Shown piece after piece: positions 4,617 to 12,276 of a stretch of 64,000 bases of DNA. The notes under the pieces were generated by a model. It did not search any database and had not been told where the DNA came from. It saw only the letters and a program-made list of their open reading frames with translations. A program made the position numbers and the translations under genes. Position 1 is the first letter of the stretch; the number at the start of each line of letters is the position of its first letter. The DNA comes from Acetobacteroides hydrogenigenes (GTDB lineage Bacteria; Bacteroidota; Bacteroidia; Bacteroidales; ZOR0009), in the NCBI RefSeq assembly GCF_004340205.1, contig NZ_SLWB01000001.1:558001-622000 (forward strand). The letters are read 5' to 3'.

Positions 4617-4660
4617 AATAATCCGTCACTAATAGTTAGCAGTAAGGCATATTAAACGCT

Positions 4661-4798
4661 CGTTATCCTCCCGTTGCACGGGATGGAGGGGTGGGTTGTA
4701 CTCGAACTTATACAAACAATACCATTTAGCCTAAACCAAATATTAGTTTTATTCGTCGATAATCCCCTACCTCCCGTTTTAACGGGAGGATAACCACC
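4661..4798. repeat. Inverted-end element 1 (gene-less, DUF559-associated family)
   Basis: The left end at 4661-4698 reads CGTTATCCTCCCGTT, a short loop, ACGGGA, then GGAGGGGTGGGTT. The right end at 4761-4798 is the reverse complement type (CCCCTACCTCCCGTT, AACGGGAGGATAACC). About 65 bp of AT-rich sequence lies between them, with no reading frame. Outside the left end is ATTAAACGCTCGTTATCC, which is shared with elements 2 and 3 as ATTAAnCGCTCnTTATCC. The family resemblance is direct; calling it a derivative of the gene-bearing element 3 is inference. Confidence 0.6.
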
Positions 4799-4895
4799 TT
4801 CGAAGTAAGCTAATCTCATACTTAATAAACTTAGGTCTTCGAAATAAGCCATAAAGTTCTGGCAAAATGCCATTACGCCTCAACCTAATCAATAT

Positions 4896-4928
4896 ATGCT
4901 TTAACCTATATCGATTAGGTTAAAGCAT
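4896..4928. other. Perfect 13-bp inverted repeat
   Basis: ATGCTTTAACCTA at 4896-4908 and its exact reverse complement at 4916-4928 flank a 7-base spacer. It lies in the 559-bp gap between the nuclease and HTH genes, 25 bp before the 21-bp array. It could be a protein-binding palindrome or an RNA hairpin; no T-run follows. Confidence 0.5.
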
Positions 4929-4952
4929 AATCAATATTTCCTTCGAGATATA

Positions 4953-5036
4953 CACCAAATACGTTTATCCACACACCAAATGCGGCAACGTAAGCACCAA
5001 CTTGGTGCATCTATACACCAAGTACGAGCAGCAACT
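4953..5036. repeat. Four-unit array with exact 21-bp period
   Basis: The motif CACCAAAT, CACCAAAT, CACCAACT, CACCAAGT recurs at 4953, 4974, 4995 and 5016, exactly 21 bp apart, while the bases between the motifs differ. The third copy is also half of the palindrome CACCAACTTGGTG. The array sits 140-220 bp upstream of the HTH gene at 5176. Spacing of two helical turns puts all motifs on one face of the DNA, as in operator or iteron arrays. Apart from this, element 1 and the inverted repeat at 4896, I see nothing in 4617-5175. Confidence 0.65.
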
Positions 5037-5175
5037 CTACTATTGCCATCATGAAATCAAACCTACCTTCAAGGAAAAGAAGATAACTCGAAGAAATACC
5101 AATAAAGAAAAGCATGCTTCTAATCAAAATTTATTCGTACCTTAATTGCATGTTTAACATCTAACCATCAGCGCT

Positions 5176-5526
5176 ATGCTAAAGCTGAATCTTCATCGCA
5201 TTCTTACGCTACGGGGCATAGAGAATCCGTATAGCCATCTTCGAAGCAAAGGATACCAGCGCCATAAGATTACCAACCTCATGCAAGGGAAAAATGCAAC
5301 CGTCAATCTCGAAGAGCTCGAGTACCTATGCGAAGCTTACGGCTGTACTCCCAACGATTTGCTCGAGTGGACTCCATCTAAGAAGAACGAGAACAACGAA
5401 AGCCATCCCCTACAACCACTACGCCGCAGCAAAATGCCTGTATCCATCTACAAAATCATCGAAACTCTGCCTCCCGATAGACTGGAGGAGCTGGAGAGGT
5501 ATATACTTGAGAAGGATGGGAAGTAA
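5176..5526 (+). CDS. XRE-family helix-turn-helix protein
   Basis: 116 residues. Residues 1-65 form a Cro/C1-type HTH: residues 20-38 (RSKGYQRHKITNLMQGKNA) hold the recognition region, followed by LEELEYLCEAYGCTPNDLLEW, the usual end of this fold. The C-terminal 40 residues (KIIETLPPDRLEELERYILEK) are a short charged helix that could dimerise. The lone gene is surrounded by repeat elements on both sides, and the 21-bp array lies upstream, so it may regulate itself. Its targets cannot be told from sequence. The HTH assignment is firm. Confidence 0.8.
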   Translation: MLKLNLHRILTLRGIENPYSHLRSKGYQRHKITNLMQGKNATVNLEELEYLCEAYGCTPNDLLEWTPSKKNENNESHPLQPLRRSKMPVSIYKIIETLPPDRLEELERYILEKDGK

Positions 5527-5578
5527 AATGGTAGCAAAATATTCTTTTCTGTTGGGCAGATCATCAATTATTTACAGA

Positions 5579-5756
5579 TAATGCTGATTAATCGCTCTTT
5601 ATCCCCTCCTCGGGAGGGGCAAGGGGTGGGTTGGGCTGGCATTATTAATATAGACGAGTTTCAATTCAAGCAAAACTGGGTTCTTTTAGACTTTTGTTCT
5701 ACTCTTTTCGACGAAAACCCACCCCTACCCCTCCTAAGGAGGGGATAACGTGCTTC
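5579..5756. repeat. Inverted-end element 2 (gene-less, DUF559-associated family)
   Basis: The left end is CTTTATCCCCTCCTCGGGAG plus GGGCAAGGGGTGGGTT (5597-5632). The right end is AACCCACCCCTACCCCTCC, TAAGGAGGGGATAACG (5717-5750). The two are inverted and about 85 bp apart, with no coding frame between. The outer 33 bp on the left (from 5579) recur almost exactly in front of element 3 (from 5851). Elements 2 and 3 occupy nearly all of the gene-free stretch 5527-5929; apart from about 60 bp between them there is nothing else visible. Confidence 0.7.
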
Positions 5757-5850
5757 GAATTAAGGCTATTGCAGACTAGGATAGCTGCTAAACACTAAAG
5801 AAGAAATGAATTAGTTTTTTGATACAGATGTAGACCTAATTAATAACCCA

Positions 5851-6372
5851 ACAATGCTGATTAATCGCTCTTTATCCCCTCCTCTGGAGGGGCAGGGGTG
5901 GGTAAAAACCAACCTTAACTATTTAAGCCATGAATAAACCCAAAGTCATTCCCTATAATCCAAAACTAGTCGAGCTTACCAAACACCTGCGCAACCACTC
6001 AACCAAATCGGAGGTCATTCTTTGGAATTATCTTAAGGGGTAAAAGATGTTAGGCTTCGATTTTACTCGGCAAAAGCCCATTGATAGCTATATCGTCGAT
6101 TTCTTCTGTAGTAAGCTCATGCTCGCCATAGAAATTGACGGGTACTCGCATCAGTTGGAAGAGGTATATGCAAAGGATGTCGAAAATAGTAGACGTTTAG
6201 AGGAACTTGGAATTAAGCTACTCCGCTTTCAAGATGTTGAGGTGTTTCAAAATACTAAAGGTGTTCTGCAGGTAATTGAGAATACCGTTATAGAATTAAG
6301 TTCTATCGCTGATTAACGTCCTAAAACCCACCCCTACCCCTCCTAAGGAGGGGATAAAGCGTTTCAATTCAA
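5851..6372. mobile_element. Inverted-end element 3 carrying a broken DUF559 gene
   Basis: Left end at 5870-5903 (TTTATCCCCTCC, TCTGGAGGGGCAGGGGTGGGT), right end at 6325-6362 (AACCCACCCCTACCCCTCC, TAAGGAGGGGATAAAGCG). The ends are inverted and frame exactly one gene, the DUF559 endonuclease at 5930-6316. Each end is itself a small palindrome (CCCCTCCT..AGGAGGGG) followed by AGGGGTGGGTT pointing inward. No transposase is present and no target-site duplication was recognised, so mobility is inferred from the repeated, matched ends and the gene-less copies nearby. Confidence 0.55.
5930..6316 (+). pseudogene. DUF559 (Vsr-like) endonuclease, interrupted by one in-frame stop
   Basis: From ATG at 5930 the frame encodes a typical DUF559 N-terminus (MNKPKVIPYNPKL, then STKSEVILWNYLKG). 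It meets TAA at 6041-6043 and continues in the same frame with KMLGFDFTRQKPIDSYIVDF and LAIEIDGYSH to 6316. Family members read LKGKKMLG or similar here, so a single AAA or CAA to TAA change explains the break. DUF559 proteins have the Vsr/PD-(D/E)XK nuclease fold; the D of IVDF and the E and D of AIEIDG are the expected core residues. ATG at 6047 could still start an 89-residue product that keeps this core but lacks the N-terminal helix. The gene is framed by inverted ends (element 3). Family call firm; loss of function probable. Confidence 0.8.
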
Positions 6373-7377: not shown

Positions 7378-7998
7378 CTAACAGGCAACGACTCGAAGAT
7401 CGAGGACTTCGCGTAAGCCTCCTAACCCGATTGACGAGCAGTTTCCCTTTAGCATGTAGTACATCACCTTATTAAGCCGGCTTCCGGCAAGAAGACCTTC
7501 CGCGTTAGCTTCATGCCTATGCGAGAACATCTCTATGCTCGAAAGGTAGAGCTTGCTTGCCAAAGCGGCATCAATATCAGACTCGAAGACGCCAGTACGA
7601 ATTCCCTTCGTAAAAAGATGAACAACCAGATCGAGGATTTCCCCACGGCGCTCGTCCGTGATGCGCTGCGCCGCAGCAGCATCAATCATCGCTCCCTTAA
7701 TAGCAGGATGACTCGAGAAATCGCGAAGTAGGGTGCTTACATTTCGCCCAATTACCACCAGCGCAGCTATTGGGCTTGCAGCTTTCGATGCATCCAAGCG
7801 AATTTTATCAATGCGGCGCTTCAGGAAGCTATCCATAACGCACTCCATTAGCTGCTGCTTGCTGTCGAAATGGTTGTAAAGCGTCTTCTTGGAAACGCCA
7901 ATCGAAGCTGCAATTTCTTCAACCTTAAGATTAACGCTTGTAGAATCGAGAATTACCTTCGAGACTAAATCTATATAGTAAAGCTTTTTAGACCTCAT
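7378..7998 (-). CDS. TetR/AcrR-family regulator at the end of the efflux operon
   Basis: 206 residues. The DNA-binding HTH lies near residues 22-50 (VEEIAASIGVSKKTLYNHF, then DSKQQL), the diagnostic TetR pattern. The remaining 150 residues are an all-helical ligand-binding domain without close similarity that I can name. It starts 24 bp after the permease gene, on the same strand, so it is probably the last regulator of the efflux transcript or the first gene of a unit with lysO. A second, different TetR gene opens the operon at 15061. Confidence 0.85.
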   Translation of the reverse strand: MRSKKLYYIDLVSKVILDSTSVNLKVEEIAASIGVSKKTLYNHFDSKQQLMECVMDSFLKRRIDKIRLDASKAASPIAALVVIGRNVSTLLRDFSSHPAIKGAMIDAAAAQRITDERRGEILDLVVHLFTKGIRTGVFESDIDAALASKLYLSSIEMFSHRHEANAEGLLAGSRLNKVMYYMLKGNCSSIGLGGLREVLDLRVVAC

Positions 7999-10467: not shown

Positions 10468-10503
10468 ACCCACCCCTACCCCTCCTAAGGAGGGGATAAC
10501 GAA
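10468..10503. repeat. Solitary end of the DUF559-associated element family
   Basis: ACCCACCCCTACCCCTCCT, AAGGAGGGGATAACG is base-for-base the same as the right ends at 5717 and 6325 over more than 30 bp. I see no partner end; a faint AGGGATAACC at 10441 might be a remnant. It sits between the ATPase and permease genes of the efflux operon. Confidence 0.75.
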
Positions 10504-11332: not shown

Positions 11333-11352
11333 AATTTTAAAGATGAAAAAGG

Positions 11353-12276
11353 TTATAGACCTGCGCCGCTACTTGCAACCATCAAATCCATAAAGCAGTC
11401 CTCGATGGTTGCCTCTGTTGGCTGTAAGGTTTGAGCAATTCCGCATTCCGACAGCTTCTGCTCAACACTCACTCTAGCATCTTCTCTTTTCAGCACAACG
11501 TGTACGTTCTGTCCAAAAGCAAATGCGCTTTCCACCTCGGGCATAACTCGTAATGCTTTAATCGATGCGTATATGTTTGCCGTTGGAAGAGCGTAGAGCG
11601 GCTTACTAAAGTCTTTTATTATGGCAGATGGACTATCGACCTTAAGAATTTCGCCCGACTGAATGAGCGCAACCCTATCGCAAAGGCTTGCCTCGTCCAT
11701 GTACGGCGTCGAAACTACAATGGTGATTCCATGCTGCTCGAGCATTTTAAGCATTTCCCAAAACTCCTTTCGCGATACAGCATCGACGCCCGTTGTAGGC
11801 TCATCGAGCAGCAGCAATTCAGGTTTGTGGATCAGCGCACAGGAGAGGGCTAGCTTCTGCTTCATTCCTCCTGAGAGTTTTCCTGCTGGTCTGTCCTTAA
11901 ATGGCTCCAGCATCTTAAACACAGGCTTAATCAGGTCGTAGTTTTCCTTTATCGTTGTCCCGAAAACCGATGCGAAGAAGTTGAGATTCTCCTCAACCGT
12001 CAGGTCGGGATAAAGCGAGAACTTTCCGGGCATATAGCCCACCATCTTTCGAATCTGCTTGTAGTCCTTCACCGAATCGAGCCCTAGTGCGGTTATCTTC
12101 CCCGACGAAGGAAGCAGAAGCGAGGCAATTAACCGAAACAAGGTTGTCTTGCCGGCACCATCTGGACCAATTATGCCAAATAGTTCTCCCTGTTCGATGC
12201 TCAACGAAACGCCTTTCAGCGCCTCCACTTCGCCAAAATGCTTTCTGATATTCTCTATGCTGAGTGCTATCATCAC
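11353..12276 (-). CDS. ABC transporter ATPase (first half of a YbhF-type pair)
   Basis: 307 residues. Walker A GPDGAGKTT near residue 38, a regular signature LSGGMKQK, Walker B LLLLDEPTTGVD, and the H-loop region STPYMDEASLC. The last 80 residues are an extra domain (EVESAFAFGQNVHVVLKRED) seen in drug-export ATPases of this group. It is the partner of the noncanonical ATPase that follows. It starts 30 bp after the HlyD gene, a gap holding the short tract at 12281. Confidence 0.9.
   Translation of the reverse strand: MMIALSIENIRKHFGEVEALKGVSLSIEQGELFGIIGPDGAGKTTLFRLIASLLLPSSGKITALGLDSVKDYKQIRKMVGYMPGKFSLYPDLTVEENLNFFASVFGTTIKENYDLIKPVFKMLEPFKDRPAGKLSGGMKQKLALSCALIHKPELLLLDEPTTGVDAVSRKEFWEMLKMLEQHGITIVVSTPYMDEASLCDRVALIQSGEILKVDSPSAIIKDFSKPLYALPTANIYASIKALRVMPEVESAFAFGQNVHVVLKREDARVSVEQKLSECGIAQTLQPTEATIEDCFMDLMVASSGAGL

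Follow-up and report, generated by a model that had tools for sequence, protein, structure and literature searches.

Inverted G-rich hairpin ends around DUF559 nuclease genes in Acetobacteroides hydrogenigenes and other bacteria: a candidate selfish repeat family with triplex-type ends

The stretch of DNA analysed here, called the window below, comprises 64,000 nucleotides of the Acetobacteroides hydrogenigenes genome (G000, 3.86 Mb in 32 contigs; C1:558001-622000). It contains three elements, A (4663-4794), B (5597-5749) and C (5870-6359), each consisting of a pair of inverted ends. From the outside inwards, a left end is composed of ATTAAnCGCTCnTTATCC, a palindrome and the tag AGGGGTGGGT, and the right ends are the inverted counterparts. 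A first-pass annotation of this DNA had described three copies with inverted ends of palindrome and G-rich tag, and an outer sequence common to all three left ends. Both features are borne out, with ATTAAnCGCTCnTTATCC preceding the left ends at 4651, 5587 and 5860; the description needs correction for the left palindrome of A, which is decayed. The elements are bounded by a 984-amino-acid gene, which carries a PD-(D/E)XK domain, and by the gene following it; a small helix-turn-helix gene (5176-5526) sits between A and B. A near-perfect inverted repeat, TATGCTTTAACCTA / TAGGTTAAAGCATA, stands at 4872-4931 between A and this small gene and is present in an altered form in the congener G002.

Copy C frames a gene of the DUF559 family (PF04480), with a score above the Pfam cut-off. 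The earlier description of one copy framing one DUF559 gene holds for the framing, while the gene itself is broken by an in-frame TAA (Table 1); it is either a pseudogene or a gene that starts at 6047 and lacks its first third. An intact relative (L029) is found in the same intergene of G002, where the DUF559 element stands before A instead of after B. The nonsynonymous distance between the two genes is 0.066 at a saturated synonymous distance of 1.58 (Nei-Gojobori), and stops occur in the matched stretch of 5 of 103 DUF559 loci; by these measures the gene was kept by purifying selection.

Table 1. Ends, gene remnant and empty site of the repeat family in the window (G002 is a congener)
Feature	Position	Strand	Remarks
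Copy A, left end	4651..4697	+	outer ATTAAACGCTCG, decayed palindrome and AGGGGTGGGTT tag; core 4663-4697
Copy A, right end	4764..4794	-	tag remnant, palindrome CCTCCCGTTTTAACGGGAGG and GATAAC
Copy B, left end	5587..5632	+	palindrome CCCCTCCTCGGGAGGGG and tag; core 5597-5632; other arm type in G002
Copy B, right end	5715..5749	-	palindrome of the other arm type in G002
Copy C, left end	5860..5903	+	core 5870-5903; third strand 7/7
Copy C, DUF559 (PF04480) gene remnant	5930..6316	+	TAA at 6041-6043; open part from 6047
Copy C, right end	6323..6359	-	third strand 7/7
Further end of the same family	10468..10485	-	tag and palindrome arm
Empty site	11336..11378	.	occupied at the matching place of G002 by a different DUF559 element (L019 family)

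The tag mirrors the G-rich palindrome arm, with A or T opposite A, and the ends thereby follow the geometry of purine-motif intrastrand triplexes. A third strand that fits at 7/7 positions can be placed 3' of the G-rich arm in 99 of 397 hairpin readings (25%), compared with 0.5% when the flanks are shuffled and 0.5% for a placement on the 5' side; since every palindrome was read on both strands, a score could be expected for only about half of the readings. The ends come in two arm types: a search pattern restricted to these two yielded 105 ends in G000 and G002, 75 with GGAGGGG and 30 with CGGGAGG. One tag suits both of them: all 75 GGAGGGG ends fit at 7/7, as the search pattern implies, and all 30 CGGGAGG ends fit at 6/7 in a shifted register. 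We had also considered CGGGAGG palindromes as triplex breakers, a role rejected on the basis of this shifted fit.

A C-rich 5' arm, a G-rich 3' arm and an adjacent mirror third strand with G.GC, A.AT and T.AT pairing constitute the anatomy of the repeats known as BoxC, PIT or TM, and by their sequence the ends can be assigned to this class. BoxC, the PIT element and the TM intrastrand triplex motif are one and the same, present in E. coli and in more than 260 genomes, and the isolated strand of the E. coli motif is reported to fold into a triplex (Holder et al. 2015, PMC4666352). That paper dates the discovery of BoxC in E. coli to the 1990s, counts 5 inverted pairs among 23 motifs of MG1655 with variation between strains, and calls the origin of the motif unclear, no transposase or integrase remnants having been found nearby as of 2015; the words nuclease, endonuclease and ycjD are absent from its main text. 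The E. coli K-12 gene ycjD is a DUF559 gene (PF04480, E 1.4e-49), and TM 9 of Table 1 of the same paper (1,351,204-1,351,239) lies 167 bp from it, a proximity with a chance of ~0.004 by simple arithmetic. When E. coli genomes were searched with a 51-base BoxC query (E limit 10), 5376 of 5426 had matching places, with a median of 19. In a literature search that reached few subscription journals, we found no publication joining DUF559 (or Vsr) to BoxC, PIT or triplex repeats. Rfam returned for the ends only microRNA models far below their gathering scores, which we take as chance hairpin matches. A reading of the ends as structured RNA was set aside on this ground and because their geometry is the one known from single-stranded DNA.

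The ends are dispersed in many copies, partly as inverted pairs, a property they share with BoxC/PIT/TM repeats. In the G000 genome AGGGGTGGGTT occurs 46 times, compared with 3 for the reversed pattern, an excess that chance does not explain. The first-pass annotation had proposed searching this genome and its relatives for the end sequences. Within a panel of 41 relatives including G000 and the congeners G001 and G002, the pattern GGAGGGGN{0,3}AGGGGTGGGT occurs 35 times in G000, 51 times in G002, the two genomes with the DUF559 type of the window, and in none of the 39 others, G001 among them, which also lacks a DUF559 match; the reversed pattern is absent from all 41. A perfect stem of at least 6 bp is present in the 34 bases before 44 of 53 tag occurrences (34 fetched stretches). 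The motif GRACGYT stands near the tag in 19 of the 105 ends, gene-bearing copy C included, but most of the others resemble one amplified subfamily, and the motif is therefore no proof that gene-less copies derive from the gene-bearing element by deletion. At one locus of G000 (L054, C6:88712-89397), a left end together with the sequence following it forms a head-to-tail array of four units with a period of 208 bp. A run of related repeats with CTCACCCCTCATTCCCCTCTCTAAGACAGGC units and a different end type is found in G002 (L074, 578330-579330), beside the DUF559 gene L038.

Such ends also stand at DUF559 genes elsewhere. PF04480 is sporadic, with 33 matches in 15 of the 41 genomes. Of these matches 23 entered the flank tests; seven loci (L021-L024, L030, L031 and L036) were left aside as weak, partial or two of four leuS cases, as were three matches without a locus. 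We added a set of named genomes, the best 80 of at least 554 relatives of a consensus-like query, covering Bacteroidota, Chloroflexota, Nitrospira, Zixibacteria, Patescibacteria, Desulfobacterales, Acinetobacter and others. In the 41-genome panel, inspection of the flanks revealed inverted G-rich ends around many of the DUF559 genes, with sequences that vary between genes. When the upstream 250 bp were compared with the reverse complement of the downstream 250 bp, 37 of 78 named loci reached a score of at least 30, compared with 7 of 1779 slid controls. A C-rich hairpin within 250 bp on either side was present at 89 of 97 DUF559 loci of the two sets combined (70 of 1704 slid controls), and on both sides at 52 of 97 (3 of 1704). 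In the relatives set alone the corresponding values are 14/19 and 8/19. Loci with short flanks were omitted, L197 and L227 from the framing comparison and six from the hairpin test; the framing comparison used exact match ends, and for some named loci the hairpin and flank-identity tests took the match end as 3315, possibly a few bases off.

Matches to DUF559 also occur in 66 plasmid and 5 phage records, the latter out of 50,697. All seven of the plasmid and phage loci that we opened have a C-rich hairpin within 300 bp of the gene. The third strand is complete (6/6) in L259, L262 and L264 and reaches at most 5/6, a value that does not discriminate, in the other four; the phage locus L265, which has palindromes, is one of these. 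The element of Deinococcus psychrotolerans is located between paaD and paaZ.

The number of repeats tracks the presence of the gene. A generic motif (CCCCYY, loop, RRGGGG, spacer, GGGGW; overlapping matches included) is found in all 15 genomes with DUF559 (median 19, sum 398) and in 9 of the 26 without it (median 0, sum 42), a difference with a Mann-Whitney p of 1.3e-6, or 6.6e-6 with the genus of the window removed. The reversed pattern amounts to 19 in all 41 genomes together. Two genomes have low counts despite DUF559 (G014 with 1 and G007 with 2). The sequence of the ends tracks the protein as well. For pairs of loci with 60-70% protein identity, 42% of the inner flanks score at least 34, compared with 0.5% of flanks 700 bp further out, and inner-flank similarity rises with protein identity (Mantel correlation 0.33, none of 300 permutations as high). 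Descent from close relatives contributes to this similarity, although the outer flanks no longer keep pace once identity falls below 70%. At 40-43% identity, paralogues within G028 have unlike ends, and at 86-95% those of G028 and of G015 have like ends. The first-pass annotation had pictured an element with a framed DUF559 gene, gene-less derivatives and no transposase, which would fail if DUF559 genes elsewhere lacked such ends or if the G-rich repeats had no link to them. Given the framing and the tracking by both the exact end and the generic motif, this model has held; copying driven by the nuclease, also suggested there, remains its conjectural part.

Comparison between species reveals both occupied and empty sites, as that annotation had proposed to look for. 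The DUF559 elements L019 and L034 of G002 are absent from G000 at the matching places, one of which is the empty site in Table 1. G000 and G002 share a gene-less pair (L043) that G001 lacks, and a solo end (L056) of G000 is missing from G002. For the other DUF559 element of G000 (L009), no clean empty site was found in G001 or G002.

At sites common to G000 and G002 the ends are partly exchanged. Among the six sites compared (A, B, L040, L043, L053 and L071), the palindrome switches to the other arm type in the second species at 7 of 12 ends, both arms being changed together; the outer bases are kept and so, largely, is the tag. The right end of A occupies the same place in G002, with a T-A pair of the stem replaced by C-G. 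The count leaves aside the shared sites L045/L119 and L048/L113, which were not aligned, and copy C with its different place in G002. The palindromes were thus exchanged in place, and overwriting from another copy would explain this simply; it is favoured over point mutation because the latter needs several matched changes each time.

The DUF559 protein has the features of a nuclease. Among 50 sequences D57, E68, H74 and D83 are invariant and D70 is nearly so. An AlphaFold2 model built from the alignment reached a predicted local distance difference test score of 88.8 and replaced a single-sequence model with 37.6. The predicted fold matches 3HRL (E 1.3e-7) and the catalytic domain of I-Bth0305I, 3R3P (E 2.7e-4), and more weakly Vsr (1CW0, 0.026, and 1VSR). 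Sequence searches agree (E 4.1e-28 and 9.8e-6, the latter for I-Bth0305I). With its conserved D, E-x-D and H in the predicted I-Bth0305I/Vsr fold, the protein would belong to the EDxHD nucleases. PADLOC gave only weak matches, to mREase_II (0.0011 to 0.0023) and DpdF (0.0081). One DUF559 gene had already been assigned to the EDxHD homing family in 2022 (PMC9403480). Kinship of DUF559 with homing nucleases is already known; the tie to triplex repeats is new.

Some of these elements are lodged inside conserved genes. The DUF559 domain stands in frame within leuS, the gene of leucyl-tRNA synthetase (LeuRS), in 4 of the 41 genomes (L012, L016, L022 and L023), three at one site and one decayed copy at another. 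We take the common site to lie in the editing-domain region. The LeuRS proteins of L012 and L016 include the translated palindromic ends. By eye, the nuclease motifs of L022 and L023 look decayed, and leuS is still open. On two Synechocystis plasmids, judging from the annotation (DUF1156 and PglX labels) and the sequence by eye, DUF559 lies between parts of an apparent methyltransferase gene. The DUF559 elements of the cyanobacterial plasmid loci L260 and L264 lie inside or beside such DUF1156/PglX genes, and DUF559 also adjoins DUF1156 genes in L261 and L263, making these a possible preferred target.

Taken together, A, B and C are probably members of a selfish repeat family whose ends are intrastrand-triplex hairpins, whose one gene encodes a DUF559 nuclease of the Vsr/EDxHD fold, and which spreads by way of repair. 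The association of the repeats with DUF559 is strong, and we infer the mechanism as follows. The nuclease would nick or cut at or beside the hairpin, probably when this is extruded as a single strand during replication, and repair would then copy sequence from another repeat of the family. Ends could in this way overwrite one another in place, the gene could reach the interval between two ends by copying, and ends enclosing little or nothing could spread as gene-less passengers.

A number of observations weigh against this explanation. No cutting, binding or movement was observed. Under the hairpin definition used here, 45 of the 97 loci have no hairpin on at least one side, 8 of those on both, and the E. 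coli BoxC stands only 3' of ycjD. The generic motif is held by nine genomes without a DUF559 match (13 in G039, 11 in G031 and 6 in G010), and gene-less ends of the L019 type are numerous in G000, which lacks the corresponding gene. L226 and L237, paralogues of one Aquimarina with 70% identity, have unlike ends. The evidence for mobility is comparative only: the absence of an element could be a deletion, and the change may have been a gain or a loss. Neither a precise insertion boundary nor a target duplication could be fixed at the four polymorphic sites where they were sought, because their flanks are too diverged. Copy B of G002 has an alteration in the tag as well, and both ends of copy C, which has a different location in G002, are without palindrome exchange. 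Finally, all 15 genomes with DUF559 also hold Y1 transposases.

The strongest rival holds that triplex repeats arise and persist for other reasons, such as fork stalling, supercoiling or transcript ends, and serve as landing sites for a free-standing homing endonuclease gene. Holder et al. 2015 (PMC4666352) link the motifs to instability without any enzyme, and the nine DUF559-free genomes with some generic motifs and the near-ubiquity of BoxC places in E. coli agree with this. However, the end type of the window is absent from G001, which lacks DUF559, the sequence of the ends changes with the protein lineage, and different DUF559 genes of one genome carry different ends. The absence from G001 and the joint change of end and protein speak against landing sites without closing the matter, and we regard this explanation as unlikely. 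Far less room is left for the notion that DUF559 is a Vsr-like repair or restriction nuclease with a cellular function, its hairpins being regulatory or terminator structures of a small operon. The Vsr entries among the weaker structure matches would fit, as would Caulobacter VsrA, a protein with a DUF559 domain that a 2026 report holds responsible for an SOS response in methylase-less cells (PMC12907096). The same ends, however, recur tens of times without the gene, and the genes are sporadic (15/41 relatives) and in some cases inside other genes, making this the most improbable of the readings, barely credible to us.

The remaining two rivals invoke a transposase. The copies could be ordinary miniature inverted-repeat transposable elements (MITEs) that depend on a DDE transposase gene at another locus, the palindromes being no more than filler inside them. 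A MITE of ~220 bp with the terminal inverted repeat CATAGCCGTCAAGCTAAG indeed carries a triplex pair inside (e.g. L055, L060 and L119), and apparent 9-bp target duplications, seen by eye as direct repeats at the borders, accompany some long copies. Among 27 aligned long copies of G000 and G002, a CATAGCCGTCAAGCTAAG-type repeat is present on the right in 23, on the left in 11 and on both sides in 11 (at most 4 mismatches). Yet the window has no match to this repeat within 3 mismatches (a site at 7504 has 4), nor has any of the 80 named DUF559 loci, and it is the hairpins, not the MITE repeats, that recur at DUF559 genes of other phyla. At A, B and C, border repeats with a target duplication were not found within 3 mismatches. 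The MITE accounts for a share of copies in this genus only. A pure MITE origin is true for a subset and rejected for A to C, and as an explanation of the copies at large it is improbable. The gene-less copies, which the first-pass annotation took for derivatives of the gene-bearing element, can still be read as such, with the correction that some elsewhere ride in this separate MITE.

Alternatively, the ends could be repetitive extragenic palindromic (REP) elements or their paired form (REPINs), moved by a REP-associated tyrosine transposase (RAYT) of the Y1 type, with DUF559 as a passenger. Y1 genes are present in 31 of the 41 genomes (3 matches in G000, 7 in G002), the paired inverted layout resembles REPINs, and the number of motifs correlates with that of Y1 genes (rho 0.46). 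DUF559 is nevertheless the better predictor of the motif (rho 0.78), also among genomes with Y1 (p = 7e-5), and Y1 alone does not predict it in DUF559-free genomes (p = 0.09). Eight stretches (L098-L105) covering 9 of the 10 Y1 matches of G000 and G002, the tenth being below the cut-off and outside the comparison, contain no CCCCTCC/CCTCCCG or GGGGTGGG signals, and by eye most of them have palindromes of another kind. None of these ends was seen within 330 bp on each side of 12 Y1 loci of other genomes, several of which have other palindromes. Among the Y1 loci inspected, no Y1/HUH gene flanked by the same palindromes was found, and the tag differs from the GTAG or CGTC of REP elements (PMC3733652). 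We hold this origin to be quite improbable. As a separate observation by eye, several RAYT-type Y1 genes of this order (L096, L097 and L098-L104) lie among palindromes of their own, which are unlike triplex ends.

Whether the DUF559 elements constitute a distinct class of mobile DNA seems to us finely balanced. Such a class would have no transposase, triplex hairpins as ends and DUF559 as its sole enzyme; it would be the source of the BoxC/PIT/TM repeats of E. coli and many phyla, spread through conversion between hairpins by cutting and copying, and be able to lodge in frame in essential proteins, LeuRS for example. If this is true, an enzyme would be found for a widespread class of G-rich repeats that has been known for decades without one, a family that Pfam still lists as of unknown function would gain a function, and homing-type nucleases could maintain dispersed repeat families in the way assumed for RAYTs. 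Some of the instability attributed to DNA triplexes could then be the work of an enzyme. The presence of YcjD in E. coli K-12 makes the question directly testable in a laboratory strain.

Among known systems, REPIN-RAYT pairs are similar in having one enzyme gene flanked by palindromes along with many gene-less paired palindromes; they differ in that the enzyme here is an EDxHD/Vsr-type nuclease, not an HUH transposase, and the tag is a mirror third strand. Rickettsia palindromic elements likewise insert in frame into protein-coding genes, as the DUF559 elements do in leuS; to our knowledge they carry no nuclease gene. With the EDxHD homing endonucleases, represented by I-Bth0305I, the elements share fold and sequence, the size of a single gene, presence or absence between relatives and insertion inside conserved genes. 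In contrast to these, the DUF559 element has palindromic ends of its own and gene-less derivatives at many sites, and no intron or intein was seen around it. In structure the ends are like BoxC/PIT/TM repeats, with their C-rich arm, G-rich arm and mirror third strand, their partly inverted pairs and their variability between strains. The difference lies in the enzyme: PMC4666352 reports none, whereas the present comparison links the repeats to a gene across many phyla.

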